NCBI GenBank assembly: GCA_000227505.4
Contig: AGIF02000001.1
Span: 1-64,000, forward strand
Origin: a gamma proteobacterium HIMB55
GTDB lineage: Bacteria; Pseudomonadota; Gammaproteobacteria; Pseudomonadales; Halieaceae
Reading direction: 5' to 3'
DNA: 64,000 bases
Both the position numbers and the translations under genes were made by a program. The notes under the pieces are model-generated. The model did no database searches and was not told the DNA's origin. It saw only the letters and a program-made list of their open reading frames with translations. The number at the start of each line of letters is the position of its first letter. Position 1 is the stretch's first letter. Shown in pieces: positions 1 through 9,658 of this stretch.

Positions 1-73
1 GGGCCCAGTAGGACTTGAACCTACGACCAATCGATTATGAGTCGACTGCTCTAACCAACTGAGCTATGGGCCC
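1..73 (-). tRNA. tRNA with CAU anticodon, probably tRNA-Ile2 (3' end cut by the window)
   Basis: Read on the minus strand this folds as a cloverleaf. The acceptor arm GGGCCCA pairs with TGGGCCC, followed by a D arm GCTC...GAGC, an anticodon loop CTCATAA and a T arm with GGTTCAAGTCC. The anticodon is CAU. The body (AGCAGTCGACTCATAATCGATTGGTCG type) resembles the minor isoleucine tRNA, whose C34 is converted to lysidine by TilS, more than elongator tRNA-Met, but Met cannot be excluded. The discriminator base and CCA lie before position 1. A CAU tRNA beside rpoD is also found in pseudomonads. Confidence 0.9.
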
Positions 74-243
74 CAGAAACGCAAGTGATTTGCGGGCGGC
101 GAGTGTACCACGGCGAAATCTGAAAAAGTCGGAACGATGCGCTTTTCTCAGATAAGCTCCTTTCTCAAAAACGACTACCGTTAGGTGTGCAGATAGTGGT
201 ACGTTGCGCGGGATTTTCTTAATGCAAAAATAAGCGGGTAATA

Positions 244-672: not shown

Positions 673-1953
673 TTATCCCTTTCGAGTTGCCATCCATGCT
701 GCTGCGGCTTTTTGCTGAGCCATAGTGGCGGCGAAAACAGTGAGCTTAGGATCTGTAGACCCTGTTCGGCCAATGTTGGCTATCTGCTCATAAAACCAAA
801 ATTGCGTCGCGAACGAGTTGATGGTCCGTACGGCGTTGAACCGCGTGAGCCACATCAACCAACTGGGAAGAAGTGAGAGGTTGTCCTCGTATCGAGCAAG
901 TTCGTCTGCCCCGTCGAGTAGTTGGTTGGGACCGTCTGCGTCTACGCAGAGGGGGCGACCCAAGCCAATCATGTCCGCACCACCCGTTTCCAAAACATGA
1001 TTCATGACCTCTCTGCGACGAAGGCCACCGGTCACCATGATGGGGATGGATAGTTGATCCCGCATGGCCTTTGCGAAATCTACAAAATAGGCCTCACGCG
1101 CCAGTGTGCTGCGGGCAAGCGACTGCTCTTCGATGGGCTCAACACCATCAAGATTGAGCAGTCGTGGCTGCTCGTAGGTGCCACCCGAAATTTCCAGCAG
1201 GTCAACACCGGCTTCCGCTAGCCACGTTGCCACCGTCAATGAGTCATCAAAATCAAACCCGCCCTTTTGGAAGTCTGCACTATTGAGTTTTACGGAGATG
1301 GGGAAGTCTGCGCCGAGCGCCTCTCGTGCTTTGGTGACGATGGCAATGAGTGCCCGTGCACGATTTTCAAGTGAGCCACCCCATTCGTCATCGCGCTGAT
1401 TCGTTAGCGGGCTTAAGAATTGAGACAGCAAATAGCCGTGTGCGGAGTGAAATTGTACGCCCGTAAAGCCCGCCTCTTTGCAGGTGACTGCGCAACCCAC
1501 AAACCGGTCAATAACCGACTCGATCTCCTCTGCGGTTAATGCAACAGGTTCACCAAACTGGCTTTGGGGTAAACGCAGGCGGACGGCAGATGGCGCCTTT
1601 GGTGCTGGGTTAACGATCTTTTGTGTTTGTCGACCCGCATGGCTGATCTGTGCCCACAAATGATTACCGTTGCGAGTGCCTGCCGCAGCCATTCTTGCAA
1701 GTGCTGCAAACGCACTTTCAGAGAGCTGTCGGTCGACGATGACGTTGCCGGGGCGTTCAAGGTGATCACCATCTACCTGAATATTCCCCGAGAGTAGGAT
1801 GCCAGAACCGCCGTCGCTCCAGATGCCGTAGAGCCGTTCTAGCTCCTCTGATGCAGTTCCGTCTGGATGTGCCAGGCCTTCAGTCATGGCGGCTTTACAC
1901 ATACGGTTAGGCACTACCGCACCACAGGGTAGTGTCAAAGGTTGCTCTAGCAT
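673..1953 (-). CDS. NADH:flavin oxidoreductase, Old Yellow Enzyme family
   Basis: A 426-residue TIM-barrel flavoenzyme that binds FMN and uses NAD(P)H to reduce activated alkenes or related substrates. Family hallmarks seen are the N-terminal N-R-M-C-K-A-A-M-T-E segment (about 16-25), Q-I-S-H-A-G-R-Q (102-109), the active-site H-S-A-H-G-Y-L-L-S-Q-F-L-S-P (169-182) followed by N-Q-R-D-D-E-W-G-G, and a late G-G-A-D-M-I-G-L-G-R-P phosphate-binding loop. It lacks the C-terminal Fe-S/flavodoxin extension of 2,4-dienoyl-CoA reductase. It is the last gene of a minus-strand series that includes a thioesterase and cytochromes, so a role in lipid or aromatic catabolism is possible. The substrate cannot be told from sequence. 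A second, different OYE gene lies at 59211-60287. Confidence 0.92.
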   Translation of the reverse strand: MLEQPLTLPCGAVVPNRMCKAAMTEGLAHPDGTASEELERLYGIWSDGGSGILLSGNIQVDGDHLERPGNVIVDRQLSESAFAALARMAAAGTRNGNHLWAQISHAGRQTQKIVNPAPKAPSAVRLRLPQSQFGEPVALTAEEIESVIDRFVGCAVTCKEAGFTGVQFHSAHGYLLSQFLSPLTNQRDDEWGGSLENRARALIAIVTKAREALGADFPISVKLNSADFQKGGFDFDDSLTVATWLAEAGVDLLEISGGTYEQPRLLNLDGVEPIEEQSLARSTLAREAYFVDFAKAMRDQLSIPIMVTGGLRRREVMNHVLETGGADMIGLGRPLCVDADGPNQLLDGADELARYEDNLSLLPSWLMWLTRFNAVRTINSFATQFWFYEQIANIGRTGSTDPKLTVFAATMAQQKAAAAWMATRKG

Positions 1954-2012: not shown

Positions 2013-2573
2013 TTATTCTTCGGGTTCGAGTGTTACGTGGCAGCGTTGATCCTGCAGTAACTCTGCCGATGCTAGATCATAAACGAAATTTTGCCGGTAT
2101 TTATCCATGAACTCGTTATCTTGAGTTCTGAGACGCTTTCGCTGCAGGGCGCTTAGATATCGGCGAACATCATCTTGCGACTTCAGAATGAGTGGCGGGA
2201 CCTCAGCAGTGTTGCCATCGGGACTTTTAGCCACCATAGTGAAGTAGCAGGTGTTGGTGTGTTTGCTAATACCCGCTTGCAGGTTTTCTGCGACCACTTT
2301 GATGCCAACAACCAGGGACTTTCGACCCACATAGTTGACGGATCCCATGAGTTTAATGACCTCGCCCACTTCTACCGGTTGCAAAAACTCCACGTTATCA
2401 ACCGAGACAGTAACGCAATAATTTCCAGCATGTTTACTGGCGCATACGTAGGCCACCTTGTCCATCAGCGACATCAGCGTTCCGCCGTGAACCTTGCCAC
2501 CAAAGTTGGCATAGCTGGGCACCATAAGTTCGATAATGGTGCTTTGCGAGTAAGCGACGGTGTGTCCTTCCAC
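2013..2573 (-). CDS. Acyl-CoA thioesterase, hotdog ACOT/YciA type
   Basis: A 186-residue hotdog-fold protein. The segment G-G-K-V-H-G-G-T-L-M-S-L-M-D-K-V-A-Y (about 25-42) is the substrate-binding helix of YciA/ACOT-type thioesterases, with Asp in the expected catalytic helix position. It is followed by V-S-V-D-N-V-E-F-L-Q-P-V (56-67) and V-N-Y-V-G-R-K-S-L-V-V. Such enzymes hydrolyse acyl-CoA to free acid plus CoA in the cytosol. The protein is about 50 residues longer than YciA, with a charged C-terminal tail. It lies 54 bases after the Fe-S flavoprotein gene and 59 before the OYE gene on the same strand, so read-through from the cytochrome operon is possible. Acyl-chain specificity is unknown. 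Confidence 0.88.
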   Translation of the reverse strand: MEGHTVAYSQSTIIELMVPSYANFGGKVHGGTLMSLMDKVAYVCASKHAGNYCVTVSVDNVEFLQPVEVGEVIKLMGSVNYVGRKSLVVGIKVVAENLQAGISKHTNTCYFTMVAKSPDGNTAEVPPLILKSQDDVRRYLSALQRKRLRTQDNEFMDKYRQNFVYDLASAELLQDQRCHVTLEPEE

Positions 2574-2627: not shown

Positions 2628-3833
2628 TCAGCGCTCGTCCTCACTTGGCGTAAGACCATAGGGTTCGGCAAGCTTCCACACGTGTGGGGGCACCATAGTT
2701 CGCAGTCTTTTCGGCGCTGTGCGGCGAAGGTGGAGGATGGACTCAGCCGCTTTCATCTCGAGGCGCGTGCGCGCAAACTCGAGGCCCTTGGGGCCCGTCA
2801 GCGGCATGATTTTGCCCACGATAGGGCGCAGCCATTGCGGCATCCTTCGTAGGGGCAGACCGCCGGTTGCTCGGCGTGTATTTTCGATAAACCCTCTCAC
2901 CGCGGCGTGTCGCTTTCCAGAGGTGGAGGGTGCCTTTAATGTGAGTTCTGAGCGAATTGCATTGAGCGCTTTCTCGCCTTTTTGGTTGCGAACGAGTAGC
3001 CACTGATCCCCGCGACCGCCCATATAGCCAACGGTGATGTCTGAGAGTGTATTGACGTAGTCGACACAGGTCCGACAGGTCAGAGGAAAGAAGTCATCTC
3101 GTAGGTCAGCAATGGGCAGCTGAAGGAATGGAATTCGTCGTTTTTTGCCTGTATCAAATCGAAGTTCAACGTGGAAGTCGGGCATGAATTCTAGGTAGTT
3201 AATTCGCTCGGGGTTGCGATCCAGAAGCGACAAAAATTCATGGAAATTTTCAGTGGTGGTGTTGTCCGAGCAGGGCGTGCCGATGACGACGAGGTGCTCC
3301 AAGCCAAGTTCTTTTTCTAGCGAACGAAGTGCATAGATTTGGCAGGGTATCCCGATAACTGCAATTCGCTTATGTCCATCAGCGATGGCGGGTTCGAGGA
3401 GTTCGAGGAGCGGAGCGTATCCCATCCGCATACCCCTGCAGCTCGCCATGTCTTGTGCATCGGTAATCAGTCTTGGTACGGGTTTCCATGGATCGTTCGC
3501 GTCAGGCCCAACGCACAGAACCGCCGAGACGTCGCCAGACGCTAAAAGCGCTTCCCCTAGTCGTGTGGTTATGCCGGTCCACTGTGCGCCGTTACGTTTC
3601 GGTGCGAGCGCCGCTTGGTGCATCTCTTCGACCACGCCGAAAAAAGGTTCTACATCACCTTCGGGTTGTCGCACACGGCCGTGGGTCTGCTCTTCAAGCC
3701 GCGCATAGTCAGGGCTGATAAATTGGCAGGCGTAACCACAGCGTCCGGGCTCACTGGTCCGGCTGATACCACAGTCGGTGCAGAGCTTTCGATGCGGTGC
3801 CGAATCCTGTTCTTGCACCGCTATGAGGTTCAT
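2628..3833 (-). CDS. Fe-S flavoprotein of the FrhB family, resembling divinyl chlorophyllide 8-vinyl reductase BciB
   Basis: A 401-residue cytosolic protein of the coenzyme F420 hydrogenase beta-subunit family. Cys18, Cys21, Cys32 and Cys36 near the N-terminus look like ligands of a [4Fe-4S] cluster, and further cysteines lie in G-I-P-C-Q-I, G-T-P-C-S-D-N and T-C-R-T-C-V-D-Y. Stretches such as L-E-E-Q-T-H-G-R, G-A-Q-W-T-G-I, L-R-S-L-E-K-E-L-G-L-E, D-Y-V-N-T-L-S-D, V-G-Y-M-G-G and G-P-K-G-L-E-F-A-R are, as I recall, typical of BciB and plant hydroxymethyl-chlorophyll reductase, which are FAD plus Fe-S enzymes using reduced ferredoxin. The start overlaps the beta-helix gene by four bases (ATGA). 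Either it is a true BciB, implying bacteriochlorophyll synthesis elsewhere, or a relative recruited to the cytochrome operon. Family assignment is firm; the substrate is not. Confidence 0.85.
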   Translation of the reverse strand: MNLIAVQEQDSAPHRKLCTDCGISRTSEPGRCGYACQFISPDYARLEEQTHGRVRQPEGDVEPFFGVVEEMHQAALAPKRNGAQWTGITTRLGEALLASGDVSAVLCVGPDANDPWKPVPRLITDAQDMASCRGMRMGYAPLLELLEPAIADGHKRIAVIGIPCQIYALRSLEKELGLEHLVVIGTPCSDNTTTENFHEFLSLLDRNPERINYLEFMPDFHVELRFDTGKKRRIPFLQLPIADLRDDFFPLTCRTCVDYVNTLSDITVGYMGGRGDQWLLVRNQKGEKALNAIRSELTLKAPSTSGKRHAAVRGFIENTRRATGGLPLRRMPQWLRPIVGKIMPLTGPKGLEFARTRLEMKAAESILHLRRTAPKRLRTMVPPHVWKLAEPYGLTPSEDER

Positions 3834-5275
3834 CCGTCTAAGCCCAGCATGTATTCGGCGACGAGCAAGCGCATGTCTTCAGACACATGGCCTTGAGGTG
3901 GCATCGCTGGGAAGTCGGGTCGGCGTTTCACGGGATTGGCAACGTAATCCGCAAGCGCCTGAACGTCATTGCCATATTGCGCTTGAATGACCAGGGCCGG
4001 TGGGCCAATCAGCCGCACGTTATACGCGTGACAGCCGGCACAGATGCCGTTGTAAACAACTTCAGCACCACCTGCGTCCGCAGTAATGATGCGAGGATCA
4101 GCAGGTGCTTCCAACATTTTGGTGGCGAGCTGGCGTGAGGTGCCGATATCAGTCGCGGTAGCAACGGCATCAGCAGCACGCACAGTAGGGGCATCACAGT
4201 CTGCCCACTCTTCAAGTCCGTAGGACCGGTAGGCGTCACGGCGAGATATACAACTGCCACGCTCTTTATCGGCGGCAGATTGATAAGCCAGAATATCTGG
4301 GCCCTTAGTGCTGAACTTACTGAGCATTAAGAGCTTCATCTCTCCGTCGGGATCGTTGCCATTGTCGAACATGACATTGTTGCGAATTTCCACGTTATCG
4401 GAGTGCGGGTCCGAGCCTTTGTCGCTTGCAACCTCGGTCACAAAATCGCCACTTGTGACGATGATGCCCCCCGTATTGTTGCCTGTGATGATGTTGTCTT
4501 CGATAACCACCTGGTCTCCTGACATCACAAGTACGCCTGTGCCTGAGGGAATACCTGCAACCAGCGAGCCGGGGATGGCAAAGTTAGGTGTGTTGTTGTT
4601 GGTTACGAAGTTGCGACGAATAATCGCATCGTAAGAAGATTTGATGGGCAGTCCGGGAGTGATGAAGACCAGAATGCCACCGGTGTTATTTCTAGCAACG
4701 TTCCCCTCGACTAAAACGTGGCGGCTGTTCTCAACTTCGATGCCTGCGACATTGTCAAAGACTTGGTTGTTGCGCACGTCGATGTAGTCAGACATACCAA
4801 CATAGATCGCTGCATCCTCAATTTCACTGAGAATGTTGTTTTCAATCAGACCGTTGTGGCCAAACTCAGGGAAAATGCCGTAAAGGCCAGTATCGATAAC
4901 CCAGTTGTTTCTAATCGAGAAGTTGTTTCCCGACTGCCCCATGATGGCATTGCCTTTGTACTTTGTGATTTTGAACCACTCAACACTAAAGCCGTTTCCT
5001 GAATAGAGGATCGCATCGTTGAGAACCTTCTCGCCGTCGAGGTGGGGCCACTCGCCGTCTTCAACCACGCCAACCAGTGAAATATCGTCTTTGTCGACAA
5101 ACACAGTCTCGTGATAAGTGCCCGGGTAGACCTTGATCGTGTCACCTGCCTTGGCCTTGGTAACGGCTGCTTGAATCGACCCGCCCTCTTTGACTTCTAA
5201 AGTAGCTGCTTGGGTGGTAGCCGCTAAAAGCGCTACCAACATTATTGACAGTGCTGTGGTGAGTTTTATTTTCAT
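3830..5275 (-). CDS. Periplasmic parallel beta-helix protein fused to a C-terminal cytochrome c domain
   Basis: A 481-residue exported protein with a Sec signal peptide (cleavage near A-T-T-Q-A-A, residue 23). Residues about 25-310 are successive right-handed beta-helix rungs with recurring N-N-x-I/V and G-I-x-V/I units, like the NosD/pectate-lyase fold. A linker follows, then a cytochrome c domain with one heme site C-A-G-C-H at 412-416 and a candidate axial Met in A-M-P-P-Q at 458. Related beta-helix proteins of unknown function occur in exported gene pairs; the fused heme is the point of interest. The gene sits between a diheme peroxidase (one-base overlap) and the Fe-S flavoprotein (ATGA overlap), so the products are probably made together. 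The helix may bind a glycan or other large ligand while the heme carries electrons; this is inference. Confidence 0.88.
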   Translation of the reverse strand: MKIKLTTALSIMLVALLAATTQAATLEVKEGGSIQAAVTKAKAGDTIKVYPGTYHETVFVDKDDISLVGVVEDGEWPHLDGEKVLNDAILYSGNGFSVEWFKITKYKGNAIMGQSGNNFSIRNNWVIDTGLYGIFPEFGHNGLIENNILSEIEDAAIYVGMSDYIDVRNNQVFDNVAGIEVENSRHVLVEGNVARNNTGGILVFITPGLPIKSSYDAIIRRNFVTNNNTPNFAIPGSLVAGIPSGTGVLVMSGDQVVIEDNIITGNNTGGIIVTSGDFVTEVASDKGSDPHSDNVEIRNNVMFDNGNDPDGEMKLLMLSKFSTKGPDILAYQSAADKERGSCISRRDAYRSYGLEEWADCDAPTVRAADAVATATDIGTSRQLATKMLEAPADPRIITADAGGAEVVYNGICAGCHAYNVRLIGPPALVIQAQYGNDVQALADYVANPVKRRPDFPAMPPQGHVSEDMRLLVAEYMLGLDG

Positions 5276-6570
5276 TATTGTGACCTCGATGTCAGACGCT
5301 CACGCTGCTGTTCTTGGTGGCGAACTTGTCGTTTCTGCTGTTGGTGTAGAGAGTGCTCTGCATCACCATACTTTTGTTCCAACTGAATTGCTCGCCCCGG
5401 TACCAAACCAGACGGAACTCGCTCGGGTATGGCAGGCATAAAGCCTTCATCGGTCAGAGCGTGGAGGAAATCGACCAATCTGTCGAGTTCTACGTCTCGA
5501 AGATTGGGCTCCCAGATATGCCAATGAATAAGAAGGTTCTCGTTCTCGGGTACGGCATGGCCTCTTCCACCGTTGTAGAAGGCCACCGTATCGCGCAGTG
5601 TTTCGAAGTTTCCTTGGTGCATGTAGGGCGCAGTTTTTGCGATGTTGCGTAGGCTTGGCACGCGAAAGCCGCCTCTCTGACTTGGTATGCCTGATGTTGC
5701 CCCAGCGCCGGGATCGAAGGGCCTACCCTCCGGTTCCGGTACGCCAATGATCGCGATCTCCTGATTACTAAAAAGGGGGGGTGTATGACATTCACCGCAT
5801 CTAGATACAAAGGAGCGGAAGACATTGAGTCCTTCGAGTTCACTAGGTGAAAGACTGTCATGAATGCCGTGGGCGTAAAAGTCATACCGGCTGTTTAGCG
5901 ATACTAGGGATGCTTCAAACGCGCTGAGCGCTGAATAGACCTGATCTAAGTGGATCTCGGGTGTTCCAAATGCATCGGCGAAAAGCTTTAGGTAGGTGTC
6001 ATTACTCGAAAGGTCGGCCAATAATTTTTCAGGTGTGGTACCCATTTCATTAGATGAGTACAGCGGGCCGAGGAGTTGGGTTTCGAGCGTTGTTTTACTG
6101 CCATCCCAAAGCAAGGTGTCGAAGAAGCCAATATTCCAAAGGCTCGGCGCTGAGCGTTCGAGCACTGCGCCATTGATGCCAAGGGCACGACCTCGGCCAT
6201 CCGCAAAGCCATGATCCGGATCGTGGCAGCTCGAACAGGCGACAGTGTTATCGCCCGATAGCACCGGATCGAAAAAGAGGTAGCGGCCGAGGTCAATGAC
6301 CTCTGGCCTGAAACCATCCCGGATATCAGGAAGACCTGCACGTGGACCACCAACGCCACTGTCGTGGGGTGACGAATAGCTGTCGTAGAGCGTTTGAAGG
6401 TCACAGCCCCGCTCCGCTGAGAGCACAAAACCAGCAGGGCACACTTTTGCCAATTCGAAATCGGTGTCCGCGCCATTTGCCAGGGTGACGGGCGCTAGCC
6501 ACATCGCCACCAGAAGACCTAATCTGAATTTACTCAGCGAGTGAGGCCACATAGGTCGAAACATCGTCAA
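5275..6570 (-). CDS. Diheme cytochrome c peroxidase / MauG-family protein
   Basis: A 431-residue periplasmic protein with an N-terminal signal (hydrophobic stretch about 17-31, cleavage near A-N-G-A). It carries two c-type heme sites, C-S-S-C-H at 112-116 and C-G-E-C-H at 258-262, within the usual frame of bacterial cytochrome c peroxidases and MauG relatives (L-G-R-Y-L-F-F-D-P-V-L-S before heme 1; A-P-S-L-W-N-I-G-F-F between; A-P-Y-M-H-Q-G-N-F after heme 2). Such enzymes reduce H2O2 or oxidise a partner protein through high-valent heme. An extra Cys pair (Cys44, Cys56) lies near the mature N-terminus, and the last 35 residues form an odd Gln/Arg/His-rich tail. It overlaps the upstream cytochrome c4 gene by 41 bases. 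The tyrosine or tryptophan deciding CCP versus MauG activity was not assigned. Confidence 0.92.
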   Translation of the reverse strand: MTMFRPMWPHSLSKFRLGLLVAMWLAPVTLANGADTDFELAKVCPAGFVLSAERGCDLQTLYDSYSSPHDSGVGGPRAGLPDIRDGFRPEVIDLGRYLFFDPVLSGDNTVACSSCHDPDHGFADGRGRALGINGAVLERSAPSLWNIGFFDTLLWDGSKTTLETQLLGPLYSSNEMGTTPEKLLADLSSNDTYLKLFADAFGTPEIHLDQVYSALSAFEASLVSLNSRYDFYAHGIHDSLSPSELEGLNVFRSFVSRCGECHTPPLFSNQEIAIIGVPEPEGRPFDPGAGATSGIPSQRGGFRVPSLRNIAKTAPYMHQGNFETLRDTVAFYNGGRGHAVPENENLLIHWHIWEPNLRDVELDRLVDFLHALTDEGFMPAIPERVPSGLVPGRAIQLEQKYGDAEHSLHQQQKRQVRHQEQQRERLTSRSQ

Positions 6571-7144
6571 TGAGCTGTGGATCTCTTAGCGCTTTGGCCA
6601 AACGCGCCATTTGCTGACCATATCGATCGTCGGGGTGGCCGCCACGACGCCCCTCAGCGAAGTGCAGGTACTGGCGGCTTAGGTAATTTTGACTAAGCCC
6701 TAAAAGATTGGGTGCACCAAGCGCGTCGTTGCCTATTCCAGTGGTTCCGTGACACGCGCTGCAATAGGCGTTGTAAAGATCTTTGCCACGCGCTGTATTG
6801 CCAGCCTGGATCGCTCCAGCTGTTCTGTTGATAGCTGGAAAAGCATCAATGGCGCTAGTCGCACTGGCCAGCACCGGAGCATCAAGCGATGCGATTGCCG
6901 CGATCATTGTCTGCGTATAGCTGTCCTCACTCTTGCGCCAGCCGGCCCAAAATCCTTCAAGTTGCCGTTGGATATACGCCGCTGATAACTGGGTAAGGTT
7001 TGGTGCGCCCAAAGCGTCATTTCCCTGGCCGCTTGCTCCATGGCAATGCGCACAATGCGTCTGATAACTGTCGTTTGCAGCCACAGAGGTCGTCATCAGT
7101 AATAGGGCAGTCAGGGCTATGCGCAGTAAGGGTTTGCGGGTCAT
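6530..7144 (-). CDS. Diheme cytochrome c, c4-like
   Basis: A 204-residue exported protein with signal peptide (cleavage after S-V-A-A, about residue 23). It contains two tandem cytochrome c domains with C-A-H-C-H at 31-35 and C-S-A-C-H at 128-132. Each is followed by nearly the same G-N-D-A-L-G-A-P-N-L motif, showing internal duplication. This is the c4 layout, a periplasmic carrier that shuttles electrons to terminal oxidases or peroxidases. It is the first gene of the cytochrome operon, directly behind a TTGTCA/TATACT promoter, and is the likely electron donor or acceptor for the diheme peroxidase and the beta-helix cytochrome encoded just after it. Methionine axial ligands are plausible at Q-T-M and Q-Q-M in the two halves. 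Confidence 0.92.
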   Translation of the reverse strand: MTRKPLLRIALTALLLMTTSVAANDSYQTHCAHCHGASGQGNDALGAPNLTQLSAAYIQRQLEGFWAGWRKSEDSYTQTMIAAIASLDAPVLASATSAIDAFPAINRTAGAIQAGNTARGKDLYNAYCSACHGTTGIGNDALGAPNLLGLSQNYLSRQYLHFAEGRRGGHPDDRYGQQMARLAKALRDPQLIDDVSTYVASLAE

Positions 7145-7340: not shown

Positions 7341-7811
7341 ATGGAGTTTTTAAAGCAGACCTGTCGTGCAACGCTGAGGGAAGGATTGAGTGAACTCTAC
7401 TGCCACGCGCCTGAGGTGGCCGAGGTGTCAGATCGCAAAGGCAAGAGTTTTAGGGATCACGATCTCACCCACGTCATTTTCGGTTGCGATACATCACTCG
7501 AGGGTGAAATTTTACTAAAGCCTTGGATCTTATTTGGTACAACGATCACGGTGGATGAAATAAAAGCCTACCAGGCCGACCCCGAGGTTAAGCGTCTCAA
7601 TGAAGAAGGACTTGAGATGATGGGAGGTAGGCTCAAGACTTATATCTTGGCCTTCATCTACTATTTTCCGATGTTCTTCTGGATCTGGCTGCGCTGTGTG
7701 AGAAACATGACAGAAAAGTGGCCTCACTCAGAAGTGACTGAGGCAATGCTAGACACACCACTTGAAGAGCTGCGTCGACGCTACGGAATAACGCTATACC
7801 GGCATCGCTAG
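7341..7811 (+). CDS. Coq4-like protein with the HDxxHx11E motif
   Basis: A 156-residue protein transcribed away from the cytochrome operon. It contains H40-D41-L-T-H44 followed after exactly eleven residues by E56. This is the metal-ligand signature of Coq4, which in eukaryotes acts in ubiquinone synthesis (recently linked to oxidative decarboxylation at C1 of the quinone ring). The sequence after the motif (I-L-L-K-P-W-I-L-F-G-T-T) also has the expected helical, membrane-peripheral character. A hydrophobic segment follows at about 106-121 (I-L-A-F-I-Y-Y-F-P-M-F-F-W-I-W-L). It is shorter than mitochondrial Coq4. The ubiquinone hydroxylase gene coq7 lies at 31358-32005. A quinone role is inference; the motif itself is directly visible. 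Confidence 0.7.
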   Translation: MEFLKQTCRATLREGLSELYCHAPEVAEVSDRKGKSFRDHDLTHVIFGCDTSLEGEILLKPWILFGTTITVDEIKAYQADPEVKRLNEEGLEMMGGRLKTYILAFIYYFPMFFWIWLRCVRNMTEKWPHSEVTEAMLDTPLEELRRRYGITLYRHR

Positions 7812-7852: not shown

Positions 7853-9658
7853 TTATTCGTCGAGGAAGCTGCGGAGGTAGTCCGATCGTGTCGGATGGCG
7901 AAGCTTGCGCAGCGCTTTTGCCTCGATCTGACGAATACGCTCTCGAGTCACGTCAAACTGCTTGCCGACTTCCTCGAGCGTGTGATCAGTATTCATATCG
8001 ATACCGAAACGCATCCTCAGAACCTTCGCTTCACGTGCTGTGAGGCCGCCAAGCACTTCCCTCGTCGCCTCGGTCAGGCCTTCCTCAGTCGCTGACTCAA
8101 CCGGGCTTGCGATCGTCACGTCTTCGATGAAGTCACCAAGGCTTGAGTCTTCATCATCGCCAATGGGTGTTTCCATCGAGATGGGCTCTTTTGCAATCTT
8201 GAGGACCTTTCGTACTTTATCCTCAGGCATATCCATGCGCTCGCCCAACTCTTCGGGCGTTGGCTCGCGACCCATTTCTTGAAGCATCTGACGTGAAATG
8301 CGGTTCAGCTTGTTGATCGTCTCGATCATATGAACAGGGATACGAATGGTTCGCGCTTGGTCAGCAATTGAACGTGTAATTGCCTGGCGAATCCACCATG
8401 TCGCATACGTCGAGAATTTGTAACCACGTCGATACTCGAACTTATCAACCGCCTTCATCAGACCAATGTTGCCTTCTTGGATGAGATCAAGGAACTGAAG
8501 TCCGCGGTTCGTGTACTTCTTAGCAATCGAAATAACCAGACGAAGGTTTGCTTCGACCATCTCTTTCTTGGCGCGACGAGCTCTGGCTTCACCCATACTC
8601 ATCCGACGATTAATTTCTTTGATTTCAGTCGTCGACAGACCCACTTCATCTTCGATAATGGCAATGCGCTTTTGAAGGCGAACGATATCTTCACGGTAGT
8701 TAGCAAGACGCTCGTTAACGTCTGCCTTTTTGGTGGCGCCGTCAATCCAGTCCAGCTTACTCTCAGAGCCTTGGAAGCTCTTGATAAACTCTTTGCGATC
8801 CATTCGGCACTCTCGAACGACGAGACGCATAATCTCTCGCTCTGACTCTCGGACGACTGCCAAAACAGCGCGTGGTGTCTCGACCAGCGGATCAAAGACG
8901 CGAGGCGTTAACTTAAAGAACTTGAATAGCTCGCCTAGCTTGGCCATTTCCTTTTGTGCTTCTTTGCTGTCGTAGCCTTTCTCTTCAAGCACGTTCTCCG
9001 TTTTCGTGCATTGACGCTTCAGTGCAGTAAAACGCTTCTTAGCCTCAACGGGGTCAGGACCCGTATCGGTCTCTTCTGAATCGTCGTTACCGCTGTTCGC
9101 ATTTTGCTCGGCAATTTCCTGAGCAGACGGCACGTGGTCAGCGGGGTCAAGGTAGCCCACTAAAATGTCTGATAGCTTGCGCTCTTCTTTGGCGACAAGG
9201 TCGTACTCTTCACAAAGTCTGCGCGCGACGCGAGGGTAGTAGGCCAATGCAGCCATCAACTCGCGAATGCCTTCTTCGATTCGCTTGGCGATGACAATTT
9301 CGCCTTCACGTGTCAGCAGCTCAACAGTACCCATCTCCCGCATGTACATACGCACGGGGTCTGTTGTACGACCGGCTTCGTTTTCGACGGCGGCAAGAGC
9401 TGCTGCAGCTTCGGCCGCGGCTATCTCGTCGGCTGAACGATCACCCTCGGTGAGAATAAGTTCATCGGCGTCAGGCGCTTGCTCGAAAACCTGAATGCCC
9501 ATGTCGTTGATCATCTGAATGATGTCTTCGACCTGATCGGGCTCAGAAATATCTTGCGGGAGGTGATCGTTCACCTCGGCATAAGTCAGATAGCCTTGTT
9601 CTTTTCCCTTGGCAATTAATTGCTTCAAGAGTGATTGTTGTTGTAGCGAATCAGACAT
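7853..9658 (-). CDS. rpoD: RNA polymerase primary sigma factor (sigma70)
   Basis: A 601-residue housekeeping sigma factor, close to the E. coli length. It has region 1.1 at the N-terminus ([18 protein letters not shown]), an acidic nonconserved region about 170-210, and region 2 with [19 protein letters not shown] and [12 protein letters not shown], which binds the -10 element. Region 3 and region 4 follow, the latter with [17 protein letters not shown] for -35 recognition. It directs most transcription, so promoters here should fit TTGACA/TATAAT, as those found do. It lies downstream of dnaG on the same strand, the usual rpsU-dnaG-rpoD order, but the 142-base gap holds its own -10-like element. 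Confidence 0.99.

Follow-up and report, generated by a model that had tools for sequence, protein, structure and literature searches.

A putative BciB-type reductase gene and a conserved periplasmic redox trio form separate units of one operon in the gamma proteobacterium HIMB55

MauG-like genes are found beside those of MbnP and CorA/MopE (PMC3621798) and of methanethiol oxidase (PMC5739008), and these pairs are the closest working models for the cytochrome genes described here. In chlorophyll pigment synthesis, the step of BciB is also catalysed by BciA, an unrelated NADPH enzyme (PMC4214422; PMC13297055). The BciB of Synechocystis did not function in R. sphaeroides (PMC4214422). A locus at positions 2628 to 7144 of contig AGIF02000001.1 of the gamma proteobacterium HIMB55 (assembly GCA_000227505.4; the window analysed is its first 64,000 nucleotides) touches on both subjects. 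It contained genes for a c4-type diheme cytochrome c (gene 1), a MauG/MbnH-like diheme enzyme (gene 2), a beta-helix protein joined to a cytochrome c (gene 3), and a BciB-type protein (gene 4, bciB); genes 1 to 3 are called the trio below. The operon is real, but it holds two functionally separate units and not one pathway. The explanation that best fits the whole, with a probability of about 0.8, is that BciB is a passenger which shares a transcription unit with the periplasmic trio, and a misleading operon is thereby split into two testable parts. The host genome (2.7 Mb, single contig) carries pufL/pufM and a photosynthesis cluster. Among named organisms it is closest to Luminiphilus and to uncultured Halieaceae of the OM60/NOR5 clade, and the same genus set includes HTCC2080.

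A preliminary description of this DNA had reported four overlapping open reading frames on the minus strand, and all four were recovered there, with their family assignments confirmed by Pfam and NCBIfam. Gene 1 (6530..7144), whose product probably carries electrons for the trio in the periplasm, contained the heme motifs CAHCH and CSACH and two Pfam Cytochrom_C domains, while gene 2 (5275..6570) contained CSSCH and CGECH in a CCP_MauG domain. Gene 3 (3830..5275) encodes a TIGR03805 right-handed parallel beta-helix with a C-terminal monoheme cytochrome c (CAGCH, Met458), and gene 4 (2628..3833) has the N and C domains of FrhB_FdhB, ten Cys and no CxxCH motif. As read from the sequence, genes 1 to 3 begin with signal peptide-like N-termini and gene 4 does not. 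The overlaps along the operon were 41, 1 and 4 bases, as reported before, the last two with the junctions TAATG and ATGA; the 41 bases hold if the diheme enzyme starts at TTG, and would shrink to 35 or 23 with a start at the next ATG codons. The arrangement is kept in close relatives and is therefore not due to chance.

All four genes were found together only in one sub-branch of Luminiphilus. Every other locus examined had the trio without bciB, and the beta-helix gene was present without gene 4 in about 90 Halieaceae genomes. One Luminiphilus genome (G112) carried bciB directly behind rpoD, no more than about 10 bases from the rpoD stop, with no cytochrome genes near; its sole beta-helix gene was a paralogue (44%) at another site, accompanied by a MauG gene of its own and by one for a TPR protein. 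Other relatives in the genus had the trio behind rpoD without bciB, and a complete tRNA-Met(cat) lay beyond the trio in three of these loci. Because bciB stands behind rpoD in G112 and the trio stands there alone in the other relatives, the interval from rpoD to tRNA-Met is a variable slot in this genus.

The best solved relative of gene 4 was the plant 7-hydroxymethyl chlorophyll a reductase (HCAR; PDB 5dqr), with E=1.6e-64 over residues 12-394, its full length, and the next structure match, of the F420 type, was at E=2e-17. Both PF04422 and PF04432 were above cut-off. An FrhB or F420-linked function was rejected on the family scores (TIGR03289, 57.7 vs 331.5 bits; NF006807, 71.7 vs 269 bits). 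A BciB homologue of Thiodictyon was about 35% identical to gene 4, and its plasmid copy adjoins bchO, bchD and bchI. Gene 4 resembles BciB and HCAR in its full-length FrhB-N and FrhB-C architecture, its conserved Cys set, its chlorophototrophic carriers and its complementarity to BciA; unlike them, it has a shifted N-terminal Cys motif, and it follows a cytochrome operon and lies apart from the photosynthesis cluster. We infer that gene 4 encodes an 8-vinyl reductase of the BciB type, acting in bacteriochlorophyll synthesis.

If so, gene 4 should be confined to phototrophs and should, as a rule, not be found together with BciA. In a family sample of 140 Halieaceae genomes, with reaction centres called by PF00124, BciB was found in 18 genomes, all 18 of which were among the 53 with a reaction centre (Fisher p=3e-9, kinship uncorrected). 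BciA was found in 42 genomes with no overlap with BciB, and the same 42 were obtained with both probes, a plant DVR sequence and then a BciA-like protein from the clade itself. The reaction centre genomes were made up of 30 with BciA only, 18 with BciB only, none with both and 5 with neither (p=5e-10). Probing of 369 genomes of the class gave only three further BciB carriers, all three with reaction centres. A search by Rossmann motif found no bciA within the photosynthesis clusters of BciB-lacking relatives, and the BciA-like protein of the clade matched no BciA model in NCBIfam.

The preliminary description had proposed one four-gene system, in which the cytosolic iron-sulphur (Fe-S) flavoprotein makes or consumes a metabolite shared with the periplasmic trio. 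The adjacency of trio and bciB, with its ATGA overlap, is indeed conserved in all bciB-bearing Luminiphilus loci except G112. The gene-neighbourhood check suggested with that proposal showed, however, that the four genes rarely occur together: the trio is mostly without gene 4, and gene 4 is without the trio in G112 and in another context, beside bch genes, in Thiodictyon. Gene 4 instead tracks photosynthesis and the absence of BciA. A shared metabolite is accordingly very improbable, and the four genes as a single pathway were rejected on their phyletic distribution.

In the passenger explanation, BciB would take electrons from ferredoxin via Fe-S clusters and flavin adenine dinucleotide and would reduce the C8 vinyl of divinyl chlorophyllide on the route to bacteriochlorophyll a in an aerobic anoxygenic phototroph, replacing BciA in this branch. 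Its gene would be expressed by riding behind whichever gene lies upstream, the trio here and rpoD in G112. For pigment biochemistry, this amounts to a clean BciA/BciB exchange in one marine genus, with an incoming gene that lies outside the photosynthesis cluster and has an altered Fe-S motif.

Several observations weigh against this explanation. The tight coupling of trio and bciB throughout the sub-branch would also fit a functional link. Most of the ten Cys of gene 4 are conserved, but its N-terminal motif is CxxC-x10-C-x3-C, compared with CxxCxxC..C in HCAR and Thiodictyon BciB, so the Fe-S ligation may differ from theirs; the altered pattern is common to the gammaproteobacterial BciB of this branch and of three further genomes of the class. 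Neither BciA nor BciB was detected in five reaction centre genomes (G079, G086, G093, G094 and G110), of which G086 is 96% complete. The 8-vinyl step in these five can be met in some other way, or detection can be incomplete; they may use chlorophyllide a oxidoreductase or an undetected enzyme. The p-values given above are optimistic on account of shared ancestry, and a single gain of bciB within the genus can explain the distribution, as the counts are not independent events.

Two side observations concern these reductase genes. A BciA-like gene, split in two and interrupted by in-frame stops, was seen at G006:C139:1914-2874, in a genome that is 70% complete and had no reaction centre genes detected, and it is possibly a relic of lost phototrophy. 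The BciB homologue of a distant phototrophic gammaproteobacterium (L162, 1054-4164) overlaps a priA-like gene by four bases, a further instance of bciB placed against an unrelated gene.

The trio has a far wider distribution. The beta-helix gene was present, irrespective of phototrophy, in 106 of the 140 Halieaceae genomes and in 21 of 28 genera. When 84,980 species genomes were scanned, 408 relatives were obtained. Neighbourhoods were taken from the best 80 loci of the 408; as these come from the head of a ranked list, pairing frequencies may fall lower down. Within these 80 loci, a MauG-like gene lay directly upstream wherever the contig reached, with L145 as the single exception. About 60 of the loci also showed a c4-like gene, and those of Luminiphilus alone had FrhB. 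In most gammaproteobacterial loci, the c4 orthologue preceded the gene of the diheme enzyme. The MauG/beta-helix pair without bciB also occurred in other Gammaproteobacteria, Bacteroidota, Myxococcota and Ruegeria, and the row in Ruegeria pomeroyi consisted of a c-type cytochrome, a 'cytochrome c peroxidase', a TPR protein and a beta-helix protein. A second form of the trio with a TPR protein was seen at L041, L050 and L078 (G112, G014 and Ruegeria). The only other clearly recurrent neighbour was a TonB-dependent receptor, which lay downstream at 17 of 50 loci outside Luminiphilus, preceded c4 in several Luminiphilus of the BciA type, and was adjacent in Spongiibacteraceae loci. With the trio conserved across several phyla, the earlier view of genes 1 to 3 as a periplasmic redox module was upheld, and they form a widespread and conserved but uncharacterised module of a known general kind. 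A literature search on the trio and on TIGR03805 with MauG found no described function.

The nearest family of the diheme enzyme was TIGR04039 (MbnH), the cut-off of which was not reached (202.9 vs 362.85 bits), and its neighbour belongs to TIGR03805 and is not MbnP; the nearest structure was MbnH 6e1c. The MauG equivalog TIGR03791 was not reached (151.7 vs 443.85 bits). Tyr332 aligned with the Met ligand of cytochrome c peroxidases and was invariant, with Tyr in 14 of 14 aligned sequences. MauG likewise has Tyr at the place of this Met, and the exchange there accompanies poor peroxidase function. The invariant Tyr at the Met ligand position therefore suggests a MauG-like enzyme, probably with Tyr ligation, in which high-valent oxidation is favoured over peroxide removal. 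Ordinary periplasmic peroxide removal, in which a cytochrome c peroxidase is supplied with electrons by c4 and the beta-helix cytochrome has an accessory part, would agree with the CCP_MauG membership, with the alignment over the peroxidase core and with c4 as a plausible electron donor. It is nevertheless improbable for the trio, since an invariant Tyr stands where the electron-accepting heme of such peroxidases has its Met ligand, and it leaves the beta-helix partner unexplained; a plain peroxidase was rejected on account of the Tyr.

The MbnH/MbnP (TIGR04039/TIGR04052), MopE/SACCP and CorA/CorB systems resemble the trio in combining a MauG-like diheme enzyme with a single periplasmic partner, and a TonB-dependent transporter is often encoded close by. 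Unlike in MbnH/MbnP, the partner in the trio is a beta-helix/cytochrome c protein without conserved Trp, the enzyme is below the TIGR04039 cut-off, and a c4 cytochrome is added. Pairs of TIGR03805 with TIGR03806 (SO2930-family diheme cytochrome), seen in Novosphingobium, share the beta-helix family and periplasmic c-type hemes with the trio, whereas the heme partners in the trio are a MauG-like enzyme and c4, and the beta-helix has its own cytochrome domain. The periplasmic copper protein NosD is similar to the beta-helix protein in that PF05048 was above cut-off and TIGR04247 matched weakly; it differs in that TIGR04247 reached 55.1 vs 300 bits, the locus has no nos genes, and the beta-helix has no conserved His.

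The beta-helix protein scored 193.6 bits with TIGR03805 (cut-off 141.5 bits), and its AlphaFold2 model was of good quality, with a predicted local distance difference test value (pLDDT) of 83.5. The best fold neighbours of the model were mannuronan/alginate epimerases and alginate lyases at 10-16% identity. Together with the nearby TonB receptors, these matches could mean that the beta-helix binds or acts on a polysaccharide and that the trio oxidises glycans. Such a role is unlikely, as right-handed beta-helices in general tend to match these enzymes, the identity is low, the Asp-Pro-His motif is not conserved across the family, and no carbohydrate enzymes or SusD recur near the trio.

The alignment of beta-helix proteins showed no conserved Trp and no conserved His. 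Tyr132, Tyr158, Asp154, Glu180 and Glu182 were kept also in TIGR03805 proteins without a MauG partner, and therefore characterise the family and do not single out a target of MauG; Tyr106 was the only Tyr specific to the MauG-linked set in this comparison. These data bear on a maturation system, in which the MauG-like enzyme oxidises the beta-helix protein itself and builds a cofactor or copper site, by analogy with MauG and methylamine dehydrogenase. The near-invariant pairing of the two genes, MbnH as nearest structure, the Tyr instead of Met, the similarity of the beta-helix to NosD, the presence of a TonB receptor in the vicinity, which is also the case at MbnP/MbnH loci (PMC3621798), and the analogous gene pairs MbnH/MbnP and CorB/CorA would all agree with it. 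The beta-helix is, however, without conserved Trp or His, Tyr132 and Tyr158 belong to the family at large, and the NosD and MbnH cut-offs were missed, which leaves maturation unlikely. The lack of conserved Trp and His speaks in particular against maturation to tryptophan tryptophylquinone or kynurenine and against a NosD-like copper site, and maturation to a copper site or tryptophan tryptophylquinone-like cofactor was rejected on this ground. With the shared family residues, it favours, at modest confidence, oxidation of a ligand bound to the beta-helix over maturation of the beta-helix protein.

In the trio as part of the preferred explanation, the Tyr-ligated MauG/MbnH-like enzyme would form a high-valent di-heme oxidant and oxidise a partner. 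The likeliest partner is a ligand bound to the beta-helix protein, and in many species this ligand would be delivered by the adjacent TonB-dependent receptor. Electrons would exit via the heme of the beta-helix protein and then the c4 cytochrome to the respiratory chain. The host genome has no close orthologue of that receptor, which counts against this explanation. It is a tentative suggestion that the trio and the frequent receptor constitute a periplasmic oxidation system that spans phyla and is so far undescribed. In it, the high-valent diheme enzyme would oxidise a small molecule that has been imported across the outer membrane and sits on the beta-helix, with transfer of electrons to the respiratory chain. 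For heme biochemistry, the locus presents a conserved MauG-like enzyme that is paired with a beta-helix protein in many bacteria of the sea.

The four genes had been described as standing behind one promoter, and this was not established. A sigma-70-like match was present at 7206-7179 on the minus strand, 35 bases ahead of gene 1, but overall the promoter scan was at chance level (6 sites vs 4.3 +/- 1.8 in shuffled sequence). On the same strand, an acyl-CoA thioesterase gene (4HBT; 2013..2573) starts 54 bases past bciB, and a gene for an OYE-family flavin mononucleotide oxidoreductase (673..1953) starts 59 bases past the thioesterase gene; with such short spacings, the transcript may extend beyond the four genes into both. 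The thioesterase and OYE-family genes also follow bciB in those loci of the sub-branch that are long enough to show it, and are not near bciB in G112.

The variable interval that holds the trio and bciB is bounded in the window by rpoD (7853..9658, minus strand) and by a tRNA with a CAT anticodon (1..75, minus strand). The latter was read from the sequence; ARAGORN gave no call, as the window edge truncates this tRNA. Between rpoD and the trio, a small Coq4-like protein with a weak Pfam match is encoded on the opposite strand (7341-7811), and its gene was found only in loci of the bciB sub-branch.

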